Below are positions 1-57,569 of a DNA stretch of 64,000 nt, in pieces. The position numbers and the translations under genes were made by a program. The notes below the pieces were generated by a model that saw only the letters and a program-made list of their open reading frames with translations, was not told the DNA's origin and did not search any database. This stretch comes from Rhodospirillum centenum SW (GTDB lineage: Bacteria > Pseudomonadota > Alphaproteobacteria > Azospirillales > Azospirillaceae): positions 3,665,001 through 3,729,000 of the forward strand of contig NC_011420.2 of NCBI RefSeq assembly GCF_000016185.1, read 5' to 3'. Every line of letters begins with the position of its first letter. The stretch's first letter is position 1.

Positions 1-1320
1 GACGACGATGCGCAGATCCTGCCCCTCGACGAACTCCTCCAGCAGCACGGTCGCATCCTGCCGCCGGGCCTCCTCGATGGCGCGGGTCATGGCGCCCGGG
101 TCGCGCACGTCCACGGTGATGCCGCGCCCCTGTTCACCGCGGGCCGGCTTCACGACGATGCGGCCGTACCGGGCCAGGAAGGCGGCATCGGCGCCCGCAT
201 CGCCTGCCACCTGCTGCGCCGGCACCGACAGGCCGGCGCGGGCCAGGACGCGCCGGGTCACCGCCTTGTCGTCGCAGCGGCTCATGGCGACGGCGCTGGT
301 CAACTCGCTCAGGGATTCGCGGCAGACGATGCTGCGGCCCCCGGCGGTCAGGCTGACATAGCCCGCCTCGGCGTCCAGGACCTCGACCCCGATCCCCCGC
401 CGGCGCGCCTCGCGCACGATGATCCCGGCATAGGGGTTCAGCCGGTCCTCCCCGTCGCAGGCGGGACCGATGAACAGCGGCTCGTTGATCGGGCTGCGCG
501 TCTTCACGGCGAAGGCCGGGATGCGGCGGAATCCCAGCTTCTCGTAGAGTGCGATGGCGTGCTCGTTGTCATGCAGGACGGACAGATCCATGAAGGACCG
601 GCCGCGCTCCCGGAACCGCGCCGCCAGCCCGCGCACCAGCCCCTCGCCGATGCCGGGCAGCGAGGCCTGGGGATCGACGGCCAGGCACCAGAGGGAACTG
701 CCGTTCTCCGGATCGGCGAAGGCGCCGTGATGGTCCACGCCGGTGACGCAGCCGAGCACCTGCCCGGTCGCATCGTCCAGCGCCACCAGATGCAGCAGCG
801 CGCCTCCGTTCCGGGATCGCGGGCTGTGCCGGGCCTCCAGCAGGAACGCCGGCGATGGCGCCACCATGCCGCGGCTGGCATGGATGCGGGCGACGGCCTC
901 GGCCTCCGCGGCGGTCTCCAGGGGGCGGAGGGCGCAGCCGGGCGGGCGGCGCTCCTCCGGCATGCCGGGGCCGAGATCCAGCCGGAAGGTGTGCGAGGGG
1001 TCGAGGAACAGCTCCTGCGGCGCCAGCGCCAGCGCCACATGCGGGTCCTGGAGGTAGAGCGCGATGTCGCGCTTGCCCGGCTCCTCCGCGCGCAGGCAGC
1101 GGACCAGCCGGTCCAGGTCGGTGAAGGTCTGGGCGAAGACCAGCCGCCCCCAGCCGCAGTCGATCCAGGCTTCGGCGCGGGCATCCTCGGGTGCGGTCGC
1201 GGCCGGGGATGCCTCGTCCCCAGCCGGCCGGGCGCCGGCGGCGGGGCGGGCGGCAGAGGGCGACAGCGACGGGGGCGAGGGGGGCGGGACATCGGTCCCG
1301 GGCATCCGCAGGACACTCAT
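1..1320 (-). CDS. ngg: N-acetylglutaminylglutamine synthetase, 3' part missing (runs off left edge)
   Basis: Translating down from the ATG at 1320 gives 440 uninterrupted residues to the window edge, so the C-terminus is lost. After a Pro/Ala-rich N-terminus (about 40 residues), roughly residues 60-280 read as a GNAT acetyltransferase (LVALDDATGQVLGCVTGVD, then a LPGIGEGLVRGL acetyl-CoA loop and LYEKLGF). From about residue 290 an ATP-grasp half begins (RYGRIVVKPARGEQGRGI, then VLLEEFVEGQDLRIVV at the edge). This GNAT plus ATP-grasp architecture is that of the enzyme joining and acetylating two glutamines in the osmolyte N-acetylglutaminylglutamine amide pathway. The start overlaps the stop of the upstream amidotransferase as ATGA, implying translational coupling. 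Confidence 0.88.
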   Translation of the reverse strand, partial: MSVLRMPGTDVPPPSPPSLSPSAARPAAGARPAGDEASPAATAPEDARAEAWIDCGWGRLVFAQTFTDLDRLVRCLRAEEPGKRDIALYLQDPHVALALAPQELFLDPSHTFRLDLGPGMPEERRPPGCALRPLETAAEAEAVARIHASRGMVAPSPAFLLEARHSPRSRNGGALLHLVALDDATGQVLGCVTGVDHHGAFADPENGSSLWCLAVDPQASLPGIGEGLVRGLAARFRERGRSFMDLSVLHDNEHAIALYEKLGFRRIPAFAVKTRSPINEPLFIGPACDGEDRLNPYAGIIVREARRRGIGVEVLDAEAGYVSLTAGGRSIVCRESLSELTSAVAMSRCDDKAVTRRVLARAGLSVPAQQVAGDAGADAAFLARYGRIVVKPARGEQGRGITVDVRDPGAMTRAIEEARRQDATVLLEEFVEGQDLRIVV

Positions 1321-3095
1321 AGGCCATGCTCCTGGAACCAGAATTCCAGCAGGGCGACCTGCCAGAGCTTCGATCCGCGCAAGGGCGTGAGATGGGCTTC
1401 GGGATCGGCCAGCAGGCGCTCGACATGGGCCGGATTGAACAGGCCGCGCCGCCGCGCCCGTTCCCCCGTCGCCAGATCGCGCACCCGTTCCAGGAAGGGG
1501 CCGCGCAGGTACTTCAGCGCCGGAACGGGGAAATAGCCCTTGGGCCGGTCGATCACCTCGGCCGGAAGGACGCGCCGGGCCGCCTCCTTCAGCACATGCT
1601 TGCCGCCACCGGCCAGCTTCAGTTCGGCCGGGATGCGGGCGGCCAGTTCCACCAGTTCGTGGTCCAGGAAGGGGACGCGCGCCTCCAGCCCGGCCGCCAT
1701 GGTCATGGTGTCCACCCGCTTCACCGGGTCGTCCACCAGCATCACCGTGGTGTCCAGGCGCAGCGCCTTGTCCACGGGACGCTCGGCGCCGGGCCGGGCG
1801 AAGTGCGCGGCGACGAAGGCCCGCGCCTCGTCCTCCCCGGACAGCAGGCCGGGGGACAGGATGTCGGCCATCTCCGCCCGGTCGCGGTCGAAGAAGACGC
1901 GCGCATAGTCGTCCACCGCGTCGCGGCTCTCCAGCAGCGGCGGATACCAGTGATAGCCGCCGAACACCTCGTCCGCCCCCTGGCCGGACTGCACCACCTT
2001 CACGTGGCGGGCGACCTCGCGGGACAGCAGGAAGAAGCCGATGCAGTCGTGACTGACCATCGGCTCGGCCATGGCGCGGACGCAGTCGGTCAGCGCGGGC
2101 AGGGCCTCGGCGCTGTCCACGAACAGGCGGGTGTGGTCGGTGCCGAAGCGCCGGGCCACGATGTCGGAATACTGGAACTCGTCACCGGCCTCGCCGCCGA
2201 CGCTCTCAAACCCGATGGAGAAGGTCTTGAGGCCGGTCTGGCCCTGTTCGGCCAGCAGTGCGGTGATGAGGGAGCTGTCCAGCCCGCCGGACAGCAGCAC
2301 CCCCACCGGCACGTCCGCCACCGTGCGGCGGCGCACCGCCGTGCGCAGGGCGTCCAGCACCGCCTCCTGCCACTCGGCCGCGCTGCGTCGGGCATCCCCG
2401 TCGTGCGGGCCGAAGGTCAGCGACCAGTACGGCGTCTCCCGCCGGGAGCCATCGGGCTCCAGCGTCAGCAGGGTGGCCGGCGGCAGCTTGCGCACGCCCT
2501 TCAGGATGGTGCGGGGCGCCGGCACGACGGCATGGAAGCTCATGTAGTGCTGCAACGCCACCGGATCGACGGCGGTGTCGATCCCGCCGCCCGCCAGCAG
2601 GGCCGGCAGGGTGGAGGCGAAGCGGAAGGCGCCGTCCACCTCCGCCCAGTAGAGCGGTTTGATGCCCAGCCGGTCGCGTCCCAGGACGGCACGGCCGCTG
2701 TCGCGTTCCACGATGGCGAAGGCGAACATGCCGTGCAGCCGCTCGACGAAGCGGTCGCCCCAGGCGTGATACGCCTTCACCAGGACTTCGGTGTCGCCCT
2801 TGGAGAAGAAGCGGTATCCCTTCGCCTCCAGTTCGGCGCGCAGGTCGGCATGGTTGTAGATGCAGCCGTTGAAGACGATGGCGAGCCCCAGTTCCGGGTC
2901 CACCATCGGTTGCTGCGACGCCTCGGACAGATCGATGATCTTCAGGCGCCGGTGCCCCAGGGCGGCGCGCCCCTGCACATGAAGGCCGTGGCCGTCCGGC
3001 CCCCGGTCCGTCATCCGGCCGCTCATGGCGGCAACGGCTGTCACGTTCGGAGGCCCCGCGTCGGCGCCCCGGATCTCCCCACTTATTCCACACAT
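1317..3095 (-). CDS. asnO: N-acetylglutaminylglutamine amidotransferase (asparagine synthase-like)
   Basis: A 592-residue class II glutamine amidotransferase of the asparagine synthetase B type. The N-terminus MCGISGEIRG provides the catalytic Cys2; the glutaminase half follows (GHRRLKIIDLSEASQQPM, VFNGCIYNHADLR). The synthetase half has the PP-loop SGGLDSS near residue 265 and a GQGADEVFGGY segment. Its coupling by ATGA overlap to the GNAT/ATP-grasp gene downstream marks it as the enzyme that amidates N-acetylglutaminylglutamine, an osmoprotectant, rather than as an asparagine synthetase. A general AsnB role is the alternative but is less likely given the neighbour. Confidence 0.88.
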   Translation of the reverse strand: MCGISGEIRGADAGPPNVTAVAAMSGRMTDRGPDGHGLHVQGRAALGHRRLKIIDLSEASQQPMVDPELGLAIVFNGCIYNHADLRAELEAKGYRFFSKGDTEVLVKAYHAWGDRFVERLHGMFAFAIVERDSGRAVLGRDRLGIKPLYWAEVDGAFRFASTLPALLAGGGIDTAVDPVALQHYMSFHAVVPAPRTILKGVRKLPPATLLTLEPDGSRRETPYWSLTFGPHDGDARRSAAEWQEAVLDALRTAVRRRTVADVPVGVLLSGGLDSSLITALLAEQGQTGLKTFSIGFESVGGEAGDEFQYSDIVARRFGTDHTRLFVDSAEALPALTDCVRAMAEPMVSHDCIGFFLLSREVARHVKVVQSGQGADEVFGGYHWYPPLLESRDAVDDYARVFFDRDRAEMADILSPGLLSGEDEARAFVAAHFARPGAERPVDKALRLDTTVMLVDDPVKRVDTMTMAAGLEARVPFLDHELVELAARIPAELKLAGGGKHVLKEAARRVLPAEVIDRPKGYFPVPALKYLRGPFLERVRDLATGERARRRGLFNPAHVERLLADPEAHLTPLRGSKLWQVALLEFWFQEHGL

Positions 3096-3393
3096 CGGCG
3101 GTCAGTTCCCCGGCCGGTTCCAGAAACGGACCATGGCGGCGTTCTGGGCGCCGGCATGGTCTGGCTCGTGACGCGGAACGGCCTCAGGACGGTTCAGCCG
3201 GGAGCCTGCCGACCGATGCGGCCGTCCGGAGGCGGTGCCGCGCCGGGGAAGAAACAGCCGAAAGTCGGATTTGTGCCCCGAAAGGTGCAAACGATAGGCG
3301 GAAACGATTACAGGGATCGTGACAATCGATTTCACCCTTGATCCGGGTCCCGGTAGGCTGATGGGGTGGATAACCGCCAGGGGCAATGCAGCC

Positions 3394-3564
3394 ATGTCAC
3401 CGCGCAAGCAAGTCCGCGAGCTGATCGACCGACTGGAGACCGCCGGGGTCCGACTCGAGGTCACCGGCGAGCGCCTTCTCATTCATGGCGATGCCCCGCC
3501 GGCCCTGCTGATGCGGGTGCAGCGTCACCGCCGGGCCTTGCTGGCTGCGGCGCGGAGGACCTGA
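3394..3564 (+). CDS. small TubC N-terminal docking-domain-like protein
   Basis: A 56-residue protein if started at the ATG at 3394, chosen because residues before it look non-coding and an AGGGG stretch lies 9-13 bases upstream; an upstream in-frame ATG at 3319 would give 81 residues. The body (VRELIDRLETAGVRLEVTGE, followed by RLLIHGDAPPALL and a helix RVQRHRRALLAA) has the helix-strand-strand-helix pattern of the TubC docking domain found at the start of some NRPS/PKS proteins. Here it stands alone with no megasynthase nearby. It ends 69 bp before the ferrochelatase start and may be co-transcribed with it. Function unknown; the family call is by pattern only. Confidence 0.55.
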   Translation: MSPRKQVRELIDRLETAGVRLEVTGERLLIHGDAPPALLMRVQRHRRALLAAARRT

Positions 3565-3633
3565 CCGATGGATACTCTTGCTTTTCCGCGGGAATGCCCA
3601 ATCTCTGAACGGTCCTCGGATAGAATCAGGACC

Positions 3634-4785
3634 ATGGCCGATCTCCGCACCCACCCCACCGCCGCCGAAACCCGGCACCGCCCGCCCGGTCATGTGACCG
3701 TGCCGGCCCGCCGTATCGGCGTCCTGCTGCTGAACCTCGGCACGCCGGAGGGCACCGACTACTGGTCGATGCGGCGCTATCTCAAGGAATTCCTGTCCGA
3801 TCCGCGGGTCATCGAGATCCCGAAGCTGATCTGGCAGCCGCTGCTCCAGACGCTGGTCCTGACCACCCGCCCGCAGAAGAGCGGCAAGGCCTACGCCTCC
3901 ATCTGGAACCGGGAGCGCAACGAATCCCCGCTCAAGACCATCACCCGCGATCAGGCCGACGGCCTGCGCGCCGCCATCCAGGCGCAGTACGGGGAGACGG
4001 TGGTGGTGGACTGGGCCATGCGCTACGGCCAGCCGGCCATCCAGCCGGCGGTGCAGCGGCTGAAGGACGCAGGCTGTGACCGCATCCTGCTGTTCCCGCT
4101 CTACCCGCAGTACAGCGCCACGACCACGGCGACGGCCTGCGATCAGGCTTTCCGCAAGCTCATGTCCATGCGCTGGCAGCCGGCCATCCGCACGGTGCCC
4201 AGCTATCACGACGATCCCGCCTACATCGACGCGCTGGCGCGCTCGGTGGAGCGGCATCTGACAGAGCTGCCGTGGGTGCCGGACATGCTGCTGGTCTCCT
4301 TCCACGGCCTGCCCGAGCGCAACCTGGAACTGGGCGACCCGTACTACTGCTTCTGCCTGAAGACGGCGCGCCTGCTGCGGGAGCGGCTGGGCTGGCCGGA
4401 GACGCGGGTGCGCCACAGCTTCCAGTCCCGTTTCGGCCGGACCGAGTGGCTGAAGCCCTACACCGACGCGACGGTGACGGCTCTGGCGGAGGAGGGGGTG
4501 AAGCGGCTGGCCGTGATCGCTCCCGGCTTCGCGGCCGACTGCGTCGAGACGCTGGAGGAGCTGGACGGTGAGAACCGGGAGCTGTTCCTGGAGCATGGCG
4601 GGGAGGCTTTCTCCTTCGTTCCCTGCCTTAACGCCCATCCGGACCATATCGAGATGCTGAAGGGCATCGTGGAGCGGGAGCTGTCCGGCTGGCTGCCCGC
4701 GGCGCGTCAGGCGGCCCACCATCCGGTGGTCCATCCCGTGCCCGCCCAGGCCCTGCCGCGACCCTTGCGCGCCGCCCACGGCTGA
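3634..4785 (+). CDS. hemH: ferrochelatase
   Basis: Inserts ferrous iron into protoporphyrin IX, the last step of haem synthesis. The frame is open from an ATG at 3568, but the ATG at 3634 (MADLRTHP) gives a family-like length of 383 residues and is preceded by a weak AGG. Ferrochelatase hallmarks are present: IGVLLLNLGTPEG near the start, LFPLYPQYSATTT, the active-site His in LLVSFHGLPER, HSFQSRFGRTEWLKPYT, and the acidic ETLEELDGEN segment. The tail after about residue 355 is Ala/Pro/His-rich and unlike the core. Confidence 0.95.
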   Translation: MADLRTHPTAAETRHRPPGHVTVPARRIGVLLLNLGTPEGTDYWSMRRYLKEFLSDPRVIEIPKLIWQPLLQTLVLTTRPQKSGKAYASIWNRERNESPLKTITRDQADGLRAAIQAQYGETVVVDWAMRYGQPAIQPAVQRLKDAGCDRILLFPLYPQYSATTTATACDQAFRKLMSMRWQPAIRTVPSYHDDPAYIDALARSVERHLTELPWVPDMLLVSFHGLPERNLELGDPYYCFCLKTARLLRERLGWPETRVRHSFQSRFGRTEWLKPYTDATVTALAEEGVKRLAVIAPGFAADCVETLEELDGENRELFLEHGGEAFSFVPCLNAHPDHIEMLKGIVERELSGWLPAARQAAHHPVVHPVPAQALPRPLRAAHG

Positions 4786-18078: not shown

Positions 18079-21054
18079 TCAGGCCGCGGGCCGGCGGGGT
18101 GGCCGCAGGGCCGCGGAGGCGCTGACCGCGGGGGGCAGGCGCAGGATGACGCAGAGCCTGCCGCAGCCCGTCTCTCCCAGTTCCATCTGTCCCTGCAAGG
18201 GACCGGTGACGACGGCGTGGACGATCTGGAGGTCCAGAAGACCGCCGGTGATTTCTCCGTTCAGGGCCCCCGAGGCCAGGGCCCCCGAGGCCAGGACAGA
18301 GGCCGCCCCCCCCGGGACCGTTGCCTCCGGGGCCAGCGTGGAGAAGAGGGGGTCGAAGGCACGGGCACGGTTCTCCCGCACCGGGTCCTCGTCGGTGACG
18401 GCACCGTCGTCGGCCATGGTGATGCTGGCGCCACCGTCGGGGGTCGGGGTGACGGTCACGCTCAGCACCTGGCTGCCGCTTCCGGGCAATCCGTCGGTTC
18501 CGGACAGAGCGCGGCCGGCCGCGTTCTGCACCAGACTGGCCACGGCCTGCGCCAGCAGTCCGGGGCAGGTGGTGATCCGCAGCCCCTCCGGCCCGGCGAG
18601 CCGGATCTCCGCGCCCGCGGGACGCAGCAGCGGTTCCGCTGTCGCCAGCACTTCGCGCAGATAGTCCGTCAGGTCGATCTCCCGCGCCCCGTCACTGCCA
18701 CGGTCGGCAGCGACAGTGTGGAAGGCGTCCAGCAGGCCGATGACGCGGCGGGCGGTGGCGGCCATCATGCGGCTGCTCTCCTCCACCGTGTCCAGGAACT
18801 CGCGCAGCACCGGCCGCGGCACCGGACCGGCTCCCGCCCGGTTGCGCAGGCGTCCCACCTCTGCCGCGACGAACCCGGCGAGCCCGGCCACGGTGCCGAC
18901 CGGCGTCGCCACCTCGCGCGCCATGCCGGCGACGAGCTGGCCGAGCGAGGCCAGCCGCTCCTGCTGCATCAGCCGGCCGCGGGCGTCGCGCAGATCCGCC
19001 ACCACGGCATCGAGCGAGCGATAGGCTTCGGCGTTCGCCAGCGCGATGGCGCCGTAGGCGCCCAGGGTCCGGATGATCTGAAGCTCGCGCGGGCCATAGG
19101 CTTCCGGCCGGTCGGACTGGACCGACAGCACGCCCATCACCCGGTCGCCGACGGCCAGGGGCCGGAACAGCATCGTCAGCATTGCCCGGGTGCCGGGAAT
19201 GTGGCTGGCTTCCTCGATACCGCGGCCGCGTTTCAGCAGGATCTCCCGGTTCTCCCGCACCGACAGCACGGAATAGGAGATGGGATCGTCCAGTGCCAGG
19301 GTGCTGGGCGGCAGCCGCCGCCCGTCCTCGATGCGGAAGCGCATCTCCAGCCGCCGGCTTTCCGGGTCGATCAGCCCGATCAGCATGGCCGGGGCGTGCA
19401 GCAGCTCGTTCATGTGCCGGTGCAGCGCCTCGAACACCGCCTCGGTATCCAGGCTCGCGGTGATCGCCTGTCCGATCCGGCCCAGCAGTTCCAGCGTCGT
19501 GTTCGCCTCGTCCAGCATGGCCGCCCGCGCCGTCTCGGCCTGGGCCAGGGCCTTCAGGTGCTCGGCCTCCTCGCGGGCCCGCTGCGTCTCGAAACGGAGC
19601 TGGGCCGCCAGCAGCCGGTCGTTGGTCTCCTGGTTGTAGACGGCCTGGAAGGACTGCCGCGCCCGCCGTTCGTAGTGCAGAGCCCGGTCCAGGTCGCCGC
19701 GCCGCTCATGGTCCGCGGACAGCTCCGCCAGGACCTCCGCCGGCACCGTATAGCCCTCCAGCGTTTCCCCGATGGCGATGGCGCGCTCCAGGTGCTCGGT
19801 CGCCTGCCGGGCGGGGTCGGGCACCGCGGGGCCGGGCGGCAGGCGCCGGAGAATGTCCGCCGTCACCCGCAGCACGGCGATTTCCTGATAGCGGTTGTCG
19901 TTCTGCCGCGCCCGGTCGAGCGCGGTCCGTGCCGGAACCAGCGCCTCGGCCGGGCGGTCCAGCCGGGCCAGCGCCTCGGCCGTGCCGCGCACGGCGTTCA
20001 GTTCCACGTCCGGGTGGCCCAGCTTCACCGCCGTGTCGCGCGCCGTCTCGAACCAGTCCAGCGCCTCCTGGTGCCGGCCGCAGGCCAGATGCAGGTTGCC
20101 CAGGGCGATCCCGGTGATGACATAGCGCCGGCTGCGGGACAGCGGCTCCAGATAGTCCAGGGCCCGGTCGAACAGGGTGCGGGCGCGGTCGTGCTGGCCC
20201 AGCGCCACCGTCGTCTCTGCCAGTGAGCCCAGGGTGGAGCCCATCAGTTCCGGCCAGCCGGTGTCCAGGGCGACGGCGTGCGCCTTTTCCTTCCATTCGA
20301 TGGCACTGGCATAGTCGTGCAGGTTGGCGAAGGCCGCCCCGATCACGTTCATGGTGTTGACGGCCAGCCAGAGCTGGCCGATCTCCGTCGCCGCCTCCAC
20401 GACGCGCTGCCAGTGCCGGATGGCACCGACAAAGTCGCTGCGCTGGAAGCACTGGCCGCCCTCGAAGTTGGCGATCTGCGCCAGCACGGCGGGGTGGCGC
20501 ACATCGTCGGGACGGTGCAGGTGGTTCCACCAGCGCTGGTACGCCTGCGCCGCGTTGGCATAGGTCTCCAGCCGGGCCGTCCAGGCCTCGACACAGCGCA
20601 GCCGCACCGGGTCGCGCGCTGCCCGGAAGAACCCCTGAGCCCGCGCCAGATGGTGGTCCTGGCCGATCCGGTCGCCCTTGAAGGTGCAGAGGTCGGCCAT
20701 GAAGGTTTCGGTGTCCCCCTGGCCCGTGGGGTCGGAAATGGCGGCGAAGCCGTCGCGCGCCTCCCGCACCGCGGTTTCCGCGTCCTCCAGCCGGGCCAGC
20801 AGCCGGTAGGTTTCGGCCGTCGTCAGGCAGAGCCGGCTCGTCATCCGCAGCCGCTCGATCGGCGGTACGTCGGGGCTCAGCGCCAGACGGTGCTGGGTTT
20901 CCGCCGCCAGCGCCAGCGCCCGCCGGGTATCCCGCTGGCGCAGATACCAGGACAGGGCGACGCCGGCCCGCAACCCCTCCAGCCCGGACTGTTCCTGCCG
21001 GAGCCGGGCTTCCAGGTGCGAAACCTGATCGGGAAGACCGAACGGGTCGAGCAT
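18079..21054 (-). CDS. TPR-GAF protein with degenerate histidine-kinase module
   Basis: A 991-residue cytosolic protein. The start at 21054 (MLDPFGLPDQVSHLEARLRQ) has GGAG 5-8 bases upstream; sequence before it in the open frame is low-quality. About residues 20-480 form TPR-like helices; a coiled-coil stretch at about 490-540 leads to a GAF domain (about 545-690, with GLIDPESRRLEM and GVLSVQSDRPEAY). The end resembles a histidine kinase, but the H-box reads GQLVAGMAREVATP with Arg at the phospho-acceptor position (about residue 713). The N-box keeps Asn (LVQNAAGRAL), while the G1 box (ITMADDGAVTDE) is degenerate. It is third in the minus-strand cluster with the repeat peptide and methyltransferase, 112 bp downstream. 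Confidence 0.82.
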   Translation of the reverse strand: MLDPFGLPDQVSHLEARLRQEQSGLEGLRAGVALSWYLRQRDTRRALALAAETQHRLALSPDVPPIERLRMTSRLCLTTAETYRLLARLEDAETAVREARDGFAAISDPTGQGDTETFMADLCTFKGDRIGQDHHLARAQGFFRAARDPVRLRCVEAWTARLETYANAAQAYQRWWNHLHRPDDVRHPAVLAQIANFEGGQCFQRSDFVGAIRHWQRVVEAATEIGQLWLAVNTMNVIGAAFANLHDYASAIEWKEKAHAVALDTGWPELMGSTLGSLAETTVALGQHDRARTLFDRALDYLEPLSRSRRYVITGIALGNLHLACGRHQEALDWFETARDTAVKLGHPDVELNAVRGTAEALARLDRPAEALVPARTALDRARQNDNRYQEIAVLRVTADILRRLPPGPAVPDPARQATEHLERAIAIGETLEGYTVPAEVLAELSADHERRGDLDRALHYERRARQSFQAVYNQETNDRLLAAQLRFETQRAREEAEHLKALAQAETARAAMLDEANTTLELLGRIGQAITASLDTEAVFEALHRHMNELLHAPAMLIGLIDPESRRLEMRFRIEDGRRLPPSTLALDDPISYSVLSVRENREILLKRGRGIEEASHIPGTRAMLTMLFRPLAVGDRVMGVLSVQSDRPEAYGPRELQIIRTLGAYGAIALANAEAYRSLDAVVADLRDARGRLMQQERLASLGQLVAGMAREVATPVGTVAGLAGFVAAEVGRLRNRAGAGPVPRPVLREFLDTVEESSRMMAATARRVIGLLDAFHTVAADRGSDGAREIDLTDYLREVLATAEPLLRPAGAEIRLAGPEGLRITTCPGLLAQAVASLVQNAAGRALSGTDGLPGSGSQVLSVTVTPTPDGGASITMADDGAVTDEDPVRENRARAFDPLFSTLAPEATVPGGAASVLASGALASGALNGEITGGLLDLQIVHAVVTGPLQGQMELGETGCGRLCVILRLPPAVSASAALRPPRRPAA
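18264..18293 (-). repeat. 15-bp tandem duplication inside the TPR-GAF gene
   Basis: Two identical 15-bp units (18264-18278, 18279-18293) encode the duplicated ASGAL in the degenerate ATPase region, further evidence that this part of the protein is not under strong catalytic constraint. Confidence 0.75.
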
Positions 21055-21166: not shown

Positions 21167-22381
21167 TCAGGCGGTTTCCCCCTCTGACGGGGCGTCGCCG
21201 CCATTGCCGTTGCCTGCTTCGTCCACCGTGGGGGGCGCCCCTTCCGGCGGCGGCGCCGTCACCGCGTTCAGCGGTCCGGCCCGGCGCGAGAGCAGGGCCT
21301 TGCGTTCGGCCGGGGTCAGGTCGGGGTGCAGATCCACCAGCCGGGCCGGGTCCTTGCGGTAGACGGCGGCGACCGACGGCGTTCCGGCCAGCAGCGTCAT
21401 CACCCGTTGCAGCGCCTTCGATGCCGTGCGGGGGCGCCAGGTCGGGGAAGGACGGTAATGGTCCAGCGCGGCGATGGCCTGCGCCTCGAACGGGCCGTAA
21501 CTGTCGGGGCCGGCGGGGACCGGCGCGTCGGGGCCGACCAGGGCGGACATGCCCAGCTTCTCCGCCATCGCCATGTCGGTCGGCAGCATGTCCTTCGCCG
21601 GGATGTAGAGCGTGCCGGCCGGCGGCACCGAGGCCAGCACCTTTGGATCGCGGTAGGCCCCCAGCGGCCGCACCACGGCCTGCCCGTCGAGACCCGGATA
21701 TGTCGCCGCCAGATAGAGGACGCTGCGGTGTTCCTCGCCATAGGCCTCGATCAGCCGCTCGAACAGCACGGCCCGCTTGGCATGGCGGAAGCCGGCCGTG
21801 AAGGAGAAGGCCGAATCGCCCACCGACCCCACCTGGAGGATGATGACGTGGCCGGAGGTGATGATGGGCCGGTTGCGCAGCAGCAGGTCCGTCGCCTCCA
21901 GGATCTGGCAGCCGTTGACGCTGGGATCGACCCGCAGGTCGGCCATCAGGCAGTCCAGGGAGGAGATGCCCGGCAGCATCACCGCCCGGTAGCCCTCCTT
22001 GCGGGCGATCGAGAGGATGCGACGCGCGGGAAAGACGAAGAAACCCGGATGGCCGTAGAAGACGGCGGTGACGGCGCTGCCCGCGCGCACCTCGCGCAGG
22101 ATCACCTCCGACATCTGGACATAGGTCTGCTTCCGCCGCTTGTCCTCGCCGTAATACTGCGTCAGGTCCACGGCTTCCGGATTGATGTCCCGGATCTGCC
22201 GGGCGGTTACGCCGTCCGGCACGCTGAAGAAGACGCGGTCGGCGTCGCGGATGTGGGAGATCGCCTCCAGCGTCATGTGCGAGAGGGCGCGCAGGCCGGT
22301 GCCGACAACGGTCAGGCTGCCGCGGGGCCGCTCGGGCGCCGACGGGGAGGGGGCGGCGGGGGGTGTCTCTGTCTCGGCCAT
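21167..22381 (-). CDS. borosin-type peptide-backbone N-methyltransferase (tetrapyrrole methylase family)
   Basis: 404 residues from ATG 22381; an ATG at 22396 would add five, and neither has a strong ribosome site. Residues about 21-260 are a tetrapyrrole-methylase-fold SAM enzyme (GSLTVVGTGLRALS). Its closest remembered relatives are borosin alpha-N-methyltransferases such as fungal OphMA and bacterial SonM: shared blocks are LTQYYGEDKRR, the Arg/Tyr pair in RRKQTY (R82/R83, Y87), FYGHPGFF with Tyr109, PGISSLDCLMADL and FQVG-like LQVGSVGDSAF. About residues 300-375 (ASKALQRVMTLL, HPDLTPAERKALLS) resemble the substrate-binding clasp/borosin-binding domain. No hydrophobic core peptide follows; the tail is Pro/Glu/Gly-rich. 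The repeat peptide encoded just upstream is the obvious candidate substrate. A corrin methylase role is unlikely since no cobalamin genes are near. Confidence 0.85.
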   Translation of the reverse strand: MAETETPPAAPSPSAPERPRGSLTVVGTGLRALSHMTLEAISHIRDADRVFFSVPDGVTARQIRDINPEAVDLTQYYGEDKRRKQTYVQMSEVILREVRAGSAVTAVFYGHPGFFVFPARRILSIARKEGYRAVMLPGISSLDCLMADLRVDPSVNGCQILEATDLLLRNRPIITSGHVIILQVGSVGDSAFSFTAGFRHAKRAVLFERLIEAYGEEHRSVLYLAATYPGLDGQAVVRPLGAYRDPKVLASVPPAGTLYIPAKDMLPTDMAMAEKLGMSALVGPDAPVPAGPDSYGPFEAQAIAALDHYRPSPTWRPRTASKALQRVMTLLAGTPSVAAVYRKDPARLVDLHPDLTPAERKALLSRRAGPLNAVTAPPPEGAPPTVDEAGNGNGGDAPSEGETA

Positions 22382-22414
22382 CGGGGCGGCTCTCATGGGG
22401 ACGGATGATGCAGA

Positions 22415-22438
22415 AAGGGCGCCCGCAGGGGCGCCCTT
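22415..22438 (-). terminator. attenuator-like hairpin between repeat peptide and methyltransferase
   Basis: Perfect 10-bp stem (22415-22424 with 22429-22438), 4-base loop, followed on the minus strand by TTTCTGC. It lies 52 bp after the repeat-peptide stop and 33 bp before the methyltransferase start. A partial terminator here would give much more precursor than enzyme transcript, as is usual in ribosomal-peptide operons. Confidence 0.6.
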
Positions 22439-22490
22439 CCGTTCATTACGGTGACTCAGTCGGGCCGCACGGCGGGACGGCCGGCCGGTG

Positions 22491-22868
22491 TCAGAGATCG
22501 AAGGTGTTGATGATGCCGATCTCGGCCACGTCCAGCTCGCCGCCGGAGAGTTCGGCCACGTCCAGCTCGCCGCCGGAGAGTTCGGCCACGTCCAGCTCAC
22601 CGCCGGAAAGCTCGGCCACGTCCAGCTCACCGCCGGAAAGCTCGGCAACATCCAGCTCGCCGCCGGAAAGCTCGGCCACGTCCAGCTCGCCGCCGGAAAG
22701 CTCGGCCACGTCCAGCTCGCCACCGGAGAGTTCGGCCACGTCCAGCTCGCCGCCGAAGAGTTCGGCCACGTCCAGCTCGCCACCGGAAAGCTCGGCAACA
22801 TCCAGCTCGCCGCCGGAGAGTTCGATGACGTCGGGCTGGTCGAGTTCGGTCGGGACGATGGTCGTCAT
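22491..22868 (-). CDS. acidic 10 x 10-residue repeat peptide, putative borosin precursor
   Basis: A 125-residue protein: a 17-residue leader (MTTIVPTELDQPDVIEL), ten copies of SGGELDVAEL (the third has F for S, the last loses its final L), and a tail ending IGIINTFDL. GGAG lies 7 bases before the ATG. Within the repeats, every base difference between units is a synonymous third-position change in this frame except one S-to-F, which shows this frame is the one selected. The gene lies directly upstream of the borosin-type methyltransferase. Period-five spacing of Glu-Leu also recalls pentapeptide repeats, the main alternative. That it is methylated is inference. Confidence 0.8.
   Translation of the reverse strand: MTTIVPTELDQPDVIELSGGELDVAELSGGELDVAELFGGELDVAELSGGELDVAELSGGELDVAELSGGELDVAELSGGELDVAELSGGELDVAELSGGELDVAELSGGELDVAEIGIINTFDL
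22521..22820 (-). repeat. ten tandem 30-bp units
   Basis: Ten contiguous 30-bp units, starting at 22521 and repeating every 30 bases, with a diverged partial unit at 22821-22830. Units differ at one to four positions only. Variants fall at six kinds of codon change (GAG/GAA, GAC/GAT, GTG/GTT, GGC/GGT at two sites, CTC/CTT) plus one TCC to TTC. Confidence 0.97.
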
Positions 22869-56140: not shown

Positions 56141-56255
56141 GGCGGGGACGCATCTCTTCCGGCGCAACGGTTGCAGAGTACGGCCGTTGCCAAGGCCGTC
56201 GCGCTTCCGGCATGCTCTCTTCCGGGGAGGTCGGCGGCCCGCCGGCCGGGGCACC

Positions 56256-57569
56256 ATGGCGCGCACCATGATGGAGAGACGCCAGCTCGTCCGCATCACC
56301 CAGGACCAGCTCGACCAGGTGATCGAACGGCATGAGATGTTCCGCAACGCCCGCGCGGGCGGGGCGCGCGCGGTGCTGTCCCATTTCGATCTCTCGGGCC
56401 TGTCGCTCGCCGGCCGCGACCTTGCCCATGCCGACTTCACCGCAACCGCGCTCAGTGCTGCCGACCTGGCCGGCACGGTGCTGGACTGCGCCACCCTCTA
56501 TGCCTGCGATCTCCGGCAGGCCGATCTGACCGGCGCCTCGCTGGTGAAGGCCGATCTGCGCGGGGCCAGCCTGCGGGGCGCCGACCTGACCGGCGCCAAC
56601 CTGTTCGACGCCGACCTCCAGGACGGGTCGCTGGCCTCGAAGCAGAAGGACGGCGGGACCGTCGTGCTGGCGATCGAGAAGCGGCCGTCCGACCTGCAGT
56701 GGGCCAATCTTTCCAACGCCAACCTGACCAACGCCCGCCTCTCCGGGGCGGTGGCGCTGCACACGGATTTCAGCGATGCCGTGATGCGGGGGGCCCGGCT
56801 GATCCGGGCCAACCTGCGCAACGCCACCCTGAACGGCGCCATCCTGGAGGGGGCGGACCTGTCCGGGGCCGATGCCCGCGGGGCCAGCCTGCGCGGGGCC
56901 GTGCTGACCGGCGCCACCATGACGCTGACGGAACTGGCGGGGGCCGATCTCAGCGGGGCGCTGACCGACAGGCCGGCGGGCAAGCCGCTGGACACGCTGC
57001 CCCGCCCGTTGGCGGACCTGCTGAAGCAGCATGCCCTCTGGGTCGGCAGCGCCGGGCAGGAGGGGATGCCGCTGGATCTCTCGGGTATCGACGTCCGCGG
57101 GGCCGGGTCGCTGTCGCGCCAGTGCCTGACCCGCATGGTCGCCTGCGGGGCCATCTTCTACGGGGTGGACCTGTCCGGTGCGCAGATCCAGGTCGGGCAG
57201 CTCCAGGATGCCGACCTGCGGGGGGCCGACCTCTCTGCGGCCGACCTGCGCGGCATCAATCTGCGCAACGCGAAACTGAACAACGCCGATCTTCGCGGTG
57301 CCAACCTGGATTTCCTTCAGATCGACGAGACCCGGGCCGTGCCCAGCGATCTGTCGGGGATCCGGATGCGCTATGCGGACCTGACGGGCGCGCGCCTCAC
57401 CAGGGCGAAGCTGGTGGGCGCCGATCTCTCCTTCGCCGATCTCTCCCAGGCCGATCTGCGGGGGGCCGATCTCGGCCGCGCCATCCTGACGGGGGCGAAG
57501 CTGGACCGGACCCAGCTTGCCGGTGCGATGCTGGAAGGTTCGACCGGCCTGCCGCCGGGCGTTGCCTGA
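56256..57569 (+). CDS. pentapeptide-repeat protein
   Basis: 437 residues from ATG 56256; ATGs at 56268 and 56271 are alternatives. From about residue 40 on, two blocks of A(D/N)LXX repeats (DLTGASLVKADLRGASLRGA, DLSGADARGASLRGAVLTGA) form a right-handed beta helix, split by a non-repeat segment around residues 240-290 (ADLLKQHALWVGSAGQEGMP). No enzymatic domain is visible. Pentapeptide proteins include gyrase mimics and scaffolds; function unassigned. Confidence 0.9.
   Translation: MARTMMERRQLVRITQDQLDQVIERHEMFRNARAGGARAVLSHFDLSGLSLAGRDLAHADFTATALSAADLAGTVLDCATLYACDLRQADLTGASLVKADLRGASLRGADLTGANLFDADLQDGSLASKQKDGGTVVLAIEKRPSDLQWANLSNANLTNARLSGAVALHTDFSDAVMRGARLIRANLRNATLNGAILEGADLSGADARGASLRGAVLTGATMTLTELAGADLSGALTDRPAGKPLDTLPRPLADLLKQHALWVGSAGQEGMPLDLSGIDVRGAGSLSRQCLTRMVACGAIFYGVDLSGAQIQVGQLQDADLRGADLSAADLRGINLRNAKLNNADLRGANLDFLQIDETRAVPSDLSGIRMRYADLTGARLTRAKLVGADLSFADLSQADLRGADLGRAILTGAKLDRTQLAGAMLEGSTGLPPGVA

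Follow-up and report, generated by a model that had tools for sequence, protein, structure and literature searches.

Borosins, which carry out α-N-methylation of the peptide backbone, have been described in several arrangements of enzyme, binding domain, and core. The fungal enzyme OphMA is a homodimer that acts on its own fused tail (sections of PMC11285071 and PMC11395268). In the type IV split borosin SonM-SonA, enzyme and precursor are encoded by separate, adjoining genes; SonM methylates two residues, from N to C, by means of conserved Tyr and Arg residues, and it has no binding domain, which sits on SonA instead together with a short core (parts of PMC8429565). According to the same parts of that article, no type IV split borosin pathway had been tied to a final product as of 2021 (PMC8429565). 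A further class (class 2), in which enzyme and binding domain form one protein and the core forms another, is listed in the portions of PMC11395268 considered here, where alternating acidic cores are attributed to type III borosins and the enzyme RceM is assigned to type V with reference to Imani 2022 and Cho 2022.

In the present work, we describe a borosin-type locus of Rhodospirillum centenum SW within a window of 64,000 nucleotides (contig NC_011420.2, positions 3,665,001 to 3,729,000), by whose numbering all coordinates from this species are given. The locus is, with high probability, a split borosin of known type that represents one member of a wider module combining acidic-repeat borosins with sensor kinases.

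Results

Organization of the Locus

On the minus strand, the locus consists of a peptide gene, 109 intergenic bases, a methyltransferase gene, 112 intergenic bases, and a gene for a TPR-GAF-histidine-kinase-like protein. The gene upstream of the peptide gene belongs to the PEP synthase/pyruvate phosphate dikinase family, and the PEP synthase of R. centenum is designated RC1_3562 in a section of PMC2890560. Between the peptide gene and the methyltransferase gene lies a weakly predicted GC-rich hairpin with UUUCU on its 3' side (22413..22440, minus strand), which may favor the precursor over the enzyme in the amounts made; the fold of the 111-nt stretch has a z-score of -1.23, and 22 of 200 shuffled sequences fold equally well. 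A promoter and terminator scan found none, this hairpin likewise being uncalled as a terminator, and no RNA family reached its gathering score within the window.

The Borosin-Type Methyltransferase

The putative backbone α-N-methyltransferase (22381..21167, minus strand) is 404 amino acids (aa) long, with an in-frame ATG at 22396 as a possible alternative start, and the R. centenum genome (contig of 4,355,543 bp) contains a single enzyme of this kind. TP_methylase is its only Pfam match (E 9.5e-20). In phmmer searches against PDB chains, OphMA is matched over residues 22-369 of the query (E 2.4e-77), MroMA with an E-value of 4.5e-72, and SonM over residues 25-282 (E 1.2e-37). Because SonM is without a binding domain and OphMA has a fused clasp, the additional OphMA match over residues 283-369 represents the binding region. 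The catalytic domain lies at about residues 21-263, and AlphaFold2 predicts the borosin-binding helices at about residues 322-364. The proposal of an earlier note, made from the sequence of this locus, that a borosin-type enzyme here carries its own binding region is borne out by this match through residue 369.

For the catalytic residues, we used as references the OphA mutants named in PDB titles (viz. Y63, Y66, R72, Y76, and Y98). Four of these five have counterparts in the R. centenum enzyme (Y77, R83, Y87, and Y109 in the 404-aa numbering), and the position of OphMA Y63 is occupied by Thr, so that the statement in the earlier note that the full motif set is present was slightly too strong. 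The catalytic Tyr/Arg/Tyr set is present: Y77, R83, and Y87 align with OphMA Y66, R72, and Y76 and are invariant in all 11 aligned sequences. We infer an offset of +1 between the PDB chain and literature numberings of OphA. An AlphaFold2 model of the enzyme built from 11 sequences is of middling quality (pLDDT 62, pTM 0.42); its 42 best Foldseek matches are entries for OphA, dbOphMA, and MroMA, with SonM next, though over the whole chain it superposes badly on OphA (rmsd about 19-20, TM 0.55). The Pfam, phmmer, and Foldseek results all place the protein among TP_methylase-fold enzymes of the OphMA/SonM lineage, and, the model and its superposition being what they are, borosin membership rests on the sequence.

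The Repeat Peptide and Its Tandem Array

The candidate precursor gene (22868..22491, minus strand) encodes a peptide of 125 aa that consists of 17 leading residues, ten 10-residue units, and 8 terminal residues, and that contains 35 acidic residues and no basic ones. Eight of the ten units read exactly SGGELDVAEL, one reads FGGELDVAEL, and the last is SGGELDVAEI; the self-identity of the peptide at period 10 is 0.79, compared with at most 0.23 in 200 shuffles. The underlying tandem array (22521..22824, minus strand) was detected by TRF with a 30-bp period, 10.1 copies, 91% matches, and a score of 475. In the acidic frame, the variable columns of the array number 1, 1, and 6 at codon positions 1, 2, and 3, respectively, and 17 of the 19 differences between units are synonymous, vs. 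0/19 and 1/19 in the other sense frames. One antisense frame also yields 17/19, since the wobble position is common to both frames. The acidic frame is the coding frame of the array. Both genes described in the earlier note, including that for the ten-unit peptide, are real and lie at the positions given there, on the minus strand.

No binding domain is found on the repeat peptide, and no family in Pfam or NCBIfam is matched above its cut-off; the separate acidic precursor of the earlier note, devoid of a binding domain, is in agreement with this. Used alone as a query, the peptide matches all 82 genomes of the family at E 1e-3, and it is therefore useless as a lone marker, the informative part being its placement beside the enzyme. 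Elsewhere in the window, a frame at 56187-57569 (plus strand) with many pentapeptide repeats (ADLTGA, ADLRGA) is unrelated to the borosin.

Fused Acidic-Repeat Relatives in the Azospirillaceae

Enzyme carriers were identified in 18 of the 82 genomes of the family (E 1e-3), in 4 of its 13 genera, and a search at the order level recovered the same genomes. In a sample of the class, the enzyme was found in 4/385 genomes at E 1e-20, three of them Azospirillaceae; in a sample of the phylum it was found in 15/398, R. centenum included, and in 13 of the 14 others the best match extended over the catalytic part only.

In 16 of the 17 other carriers within the family, the enzyme bears an in-frame C-terminal acidic repeat tail, which occupies the position of the OphMA core. 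The tails of G071, G074, and G075 are shortened by the end of a contig, and the remaining enzyme, that of G073, is represented by 94 residues at the end of a contig, its tail being cut off. The repeat units differ by lineage (viz. EQDAAELSSx, AELNDA, EQHETEQHEAEQHVT, EEHDAS/EEHIAT, ENHDAG, SDTDLNVTENVPP, EDVQDQNVST, and EELNEHNDV), the best lags are 6, 9, 10, 12, 13, 14, or 15 residues or multiples of these, and the net charge of the tails ranges from -21 to -83. For each of the 16 tails, and likewise for the free peptide of R. centenum, repetition is higher than in any of 200 shuffles. R. centenum alone among the carriers has its repeats in a separate gene, placed before the enzyme. Its nearest relative, G067, has an enzyme of 61% identity and a tail with a similar unit, AELSS. 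The co-occurrence that the earlier note had set as a test is borne out, in a different form from the gene pair named there: enzyme and acidic repeats are found together in all 17 carriers with a visible tail or precursor, as a fusion in 16 and as a split pair only in R. centenum. Because these relatives carry acidic repeats fused to the enzyme, the separate peptide is the likely substrate of the R. centenum enzyme, and the pairing of the two genes made in that note is upheld.

The origin of the split arrangement from a fused state is the simpler view, all other members with a visible tail being fused, and it is a matter of parsimony only, since the tree allows the split enzyme as sister to the rest: a topology in which all fused enzymes together form the sister group of the R. 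centenum enzyme is not rejected (p-AU 0.37), in a tree from which the long rows G481 and G114 of the 21-row set were dropped and whose outgroup, the second G070 copy, has a poorly trimmed start with its first residues in the wrong frame.

Assemblies break inside the acidic tail in three loci (L004 of G075, L006 of G074, and L008 of G071), and short-read genomes may consequently under-report such precursors.

The Neighboring Sensor Kinase

Directly after the tail or the enzyme comes a kinase gene in all 16 carriers whose sequence reaches this far (viz. R. centenum, G054, G067, G068, G070, G072, G076, G071, G074, and seven genomes of the genus g11); in G071 and G074, the contig bearing the kinase starts with the end of an acidic tail, and the sequences of G073 and G075 end before the kinase position. 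In R. centenum this neighbor is the TPR-GAF-histidine-kinase-like protein (18079..21054, minus strand; start assigned by homology), of which 518 aa (19501..21054, minus strand) form a predicted TPR superhelix. In the one g11 kinase scanned (G061, L069), the domains are Reg_prop, Y_Y_Y, GAF, HisKA, and HATPase. With a 710-residue query at E 1e-60, the TPR-kinase is detected in 11/11 carriers outside g11, in 2/64 non-carriers, and in 0/7 g11 genomes; the Fisher p of 1.6e-11 for 11/11 vs. 2/64 ignores kinship and is overstated for that reason. Ten of the 11 carriers outside g11 have a second TPR-kinase copy elsewhere in the genome. No acidic repeat array was found beside the second copies in four such regions or in two non-carrier regions, and the three acidic frames flagged in L064 are all non-repetitive. 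The g11 loci additionally have an SBP_bac_5 (oligopeptide-binding-type) gene that is divergent from and adjoins the enzyme in 7/7 cases, and in the 5/5 loci traced further a second kinase gene comes next.

We aligned the R. centenum kinase with 12 relatives (9 enzyme neighbors and 3 second kinases from g11). Its H-box reads GMAREVATPVG, vs. GVAHE[VI]NTP[LI]G in the 12 relatives, the His being replaced by Arg; it has DDGAV where the others have DxGxG, and an insertion where the GLGL motif sits. The H-box His and the G-box motifs, present in 12/12 of the aligned relatives, are thus both missing from this protein. Pfam detects HATPase_c in the kinases of L050 and L069 and finds none in R. centenum up to E 0.1, and no membrane domain is among the Pfam matches of the latter. 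From these motifs, the output of the R. centenum kinase looks lost. Its TPR part is well preserved, with a mean AlphaFold2 pLDDT of 92; in a fold search, its top matches are LGN/Pins TPR domains, several of them peptide-bound, and Rap-Phr* appears at rank 49, which lends mild support at most to a peptide-binding role, TPR matches being promiscuous.

Just beyond the kinase, peptides that resemble one another, each about 50 residues long and with a hydrophobic stretch at the C-terminus, are encoded in L066 (3617-5004, plus strand), L068 (5225-6478, plus strand), and L067 (3189-3341, minus strand); the one at 4852-5004 of L066 is without a Pfam or NCBIfam match.

Other Loci Observed

Several other loci attracted attention in the course of the searches. 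L035 of G114 (702-3951) encodes a borosin-type methyltransferase of 45% identity that is devoid of a repeat tail and lies after a small ORF ending in TWQQPVLSIDALRDTAVGAFSNADGNIAS; beyond the enzyme come a PqqD-like frame, read from the opposite strand, and one of the glutamine-amidotransferase kind (asparagine-synthetase-like). The layout suggests a lasso-peptide cluster that includes a backbone N-methyltransferase. A second borosin-type enzyme in G075 (L019, 1-2616, minus strand) and G070 (L020, 1-2499, minus strand) is encoded in an open frame some 1000 residues long, whose extended C-terminal part includes a DDN-rich stretch and terminates in CFLTTA...RGLPDDCEP. L036 of G481 holds another large frame. 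Near the g11 borosin-kinase locus, L069 (13337-15968, plus strand) encodes an 82-aa RiPP precursor of the Os1348-type NHLP group, along with a radical-SAM C-methyltransferase of RiPP biosynthesis (TIGR03975, E 6e-174); among the long g11 loci, radical SAM genes are present in 5/5 and NHLP RiPP precursors in 4/5.

Discussion

The R. centenum pair can be compared with each of the described arrangements. It shares with OphMA and dbOphMA the catalytic domain, the binding (clasp) region, and the counterparts of Y66, R72, and Y76; unlike in these fused fungal proteins, the acidic repeats that probably serve as substrate form a peptide of their own. Enzyme and precursor genes are separate and adjoining as in SonM-SonA, but the precursor, unlike SonA, has no binding domain, and the binding region lies on the enzyme. 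Alternating acidic cores are a feature of type III borosins (AboMA and bacterial KchMA), which the fused relatives within the family resemble, their own tails being long and many-copy; the type III arrangement, in which the enzyme bears an acidic core at its C-terminus, is found in 16 of the 17 other carriers and is absent from R. centenum, where the system is split. Hence, the arrangement in R. centenum is that of class 2, with the binding domain assigned to the enzyme by homology to OphMA and the predicted helices, and the separate peptide taken as substrate on the evidence of the fusions. The R. centenum enzyme is very likely the published type V enzyme RceM, an assignment by name, in that the three-letter code fits R. 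centenum and the genome has a single homolog. Imani 2022 and Cho 2022 are said to have expressed several split borosin types from bacteria.

It follows that an enzyme and binding domain in one protein with a separate core is not a novelty but a listed borosin class. The earlier note had held that known borosins either fuse the core or place the binding domain on the precursor, and had treated known cores as short and hydrophobic; class 2 and type V RceM contradict the former and the acidic type III cores the latter (passages of PMC11395268). What is new, as far as searched, is the fusion of acidic repeat tails to 16 of the 17 other enzymes, the constant kinase neighbor, together with the oligopeptide-binding-type gene beside the enzyme in g11, and the degenerate kinase of R. 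centenum. The main texts of four papers on R. centenum (PMC4340629, PMC7117780, PMC4681086, and PMC2890560) mention no such enzyme, the candidate locus tags RC1_3559 to RC1_3561 are not mentioned in the literature searched, and no borosin linked to Azospirillum was found in that literature, mostly outside subscription journals. A borosin and a histidine kinase are both named in portions of PMC9505594, for different things, and a borosin-kinase link seems unreported in the same, mostly non-subscription, literature.

By analogy with OphMA, the enzyme would most likely act as a dimer: the acidic repeat peptide would pass through the active site, and one repeat after another would receive methyl groups from S-adenosylmethionine at its backbone amides. 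Backbone N-methylation of the repeat peptide, suggested by the sequences of enzyme and peptide, would then occur in trans, by an enzyme carrying its own binding domain, perhaps at or next to Leu/Val, and the peptide would presumably be processed. Because a sensor kinase is the next gene in every relative in which this position is visible, the mature peptide would most likely act in, or be controlled by, signaling through the adjoining kinase.

Other interpretations of the repeats must be weighed against this substrate role. Two of them take the locus for something other than a split borosin. The enzyme frame extends upstream through the array as an open frame of 565 aa, and the core could on that account be a hydrophobic repeat (approximately SPAASWTWPN) that forms the N-terminal part of the enzyme itself, a fusion of the type 0 kind; however, all 19 unit differences are non-synonymous in that frame and the relatives carry acidic repeats, and the probability left to this reading, which the codon test rules out, is negligible. 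The peptide could also be a small pentapeptide-repeat β-helix protein unlinked to the enzyme, since AELSG/GELDV loosely fits A-[DN]-L-X-X and its best NCBIfam matches are pentapeptide families (Alr5209, E 2.5e-13). These matches and that to Pfam Decapeptide (E 0.0014) nevertheless all lie under the curated cut-offs, so that the peptide falls outside pentapeptide-repeat membership, and the fused tails have other sequences and lags of 6-15 residues that a five-residue helix cannot share. The fold is ruled out by the cut-offs and these differing periods, and we regard this account as very improbable.

A more serious possibility, though still an unlikely one, is that the acidic repeats, whether or not they are methylated, serve a function of their own in metal binding, solubility, or regulation, perhaps being read directly by the kinase inside the cell, and are not a released product. 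The tails are long, low-complexity stretches, several of them His/Glu-rich (EQHETEQHEA, EEHIAT), the TPR kinase is without a membrane domain among its Pfam matches, and the three neighboring genes scanned in R. centenum include neither a protease nor an exporter. On the other hand, the fused tails sit where OphMA has its core, the repeats of R. centenum form a free peptide and therefore need not be on the enzyme, an NHLP-type exporter set lies 0.8 kb upstream in one of the relatives scanned, G076 (L056), and the oligopeptide-binding-type gene adjoins the enzyme throughout the g11 loci. That the R. centenum locus is instead a decaying remnant, with a dead kinase, repeats parted from their enzyme, and a product no longer made or sensed, appears improbable to us: the loss of the H-box His and G motifs in this protein alone among 13 aligned kinases and the missing HATPase_c domain are in its favor, but the enzyme and repeat frames are intact and the repeat residues have been kept while synonymous sites vary (17/19).

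On the reading of the locus as a split borosin, the repeat peptide is a plausible signal, as suggested by the gene order among related genomes, the kinase of R. centenum itself being degenerate. The RRNPP peptide-pheromone receptors, in which a TPR receptor is paired with a peptide gene, offer a parallel in the placement of a TPR protein beside a peptide gene and in the presence of a Rap-Phr* structure among the TPR matches; they differ in occurring in other organisms, and the R. centenum TPR belongs to a GAF-kinase, with the peptide a putative RiPP. The more specific idea that borosins of this family make peptide signals, i.e., backbone-methylated acidic peptides sensed by the adjoining kinase, is speculative, and we consider it rather doubtful. 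The source of such peptides would be a self-methylating enzyme with its many-copy acidic tail or, in R. centenum, the free repeat peptide; sensing would fall to a TPR superhelix in some genera and, in another, to a kinase with a propeller domain acting jointly with an oligopeptide-binding protein.

By itself, the R. centenum pair belongs to a known type; it is the fused many-copy tails and the kinase module that merit follow-up. The variation of the repeat unit, set against a stable enzyme, provides a natural substrate panel for the backbone methylation of acidic peptides, and the constant kinase neighbor with its domain-swapped sensor part gives the acidic-repeat borosins of the Azospirillum family a testable function. 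If the signaling idea were true, bacterial borosins would gain a role in cell signaling, and the repeat sequence would represent a lineage-specific code.
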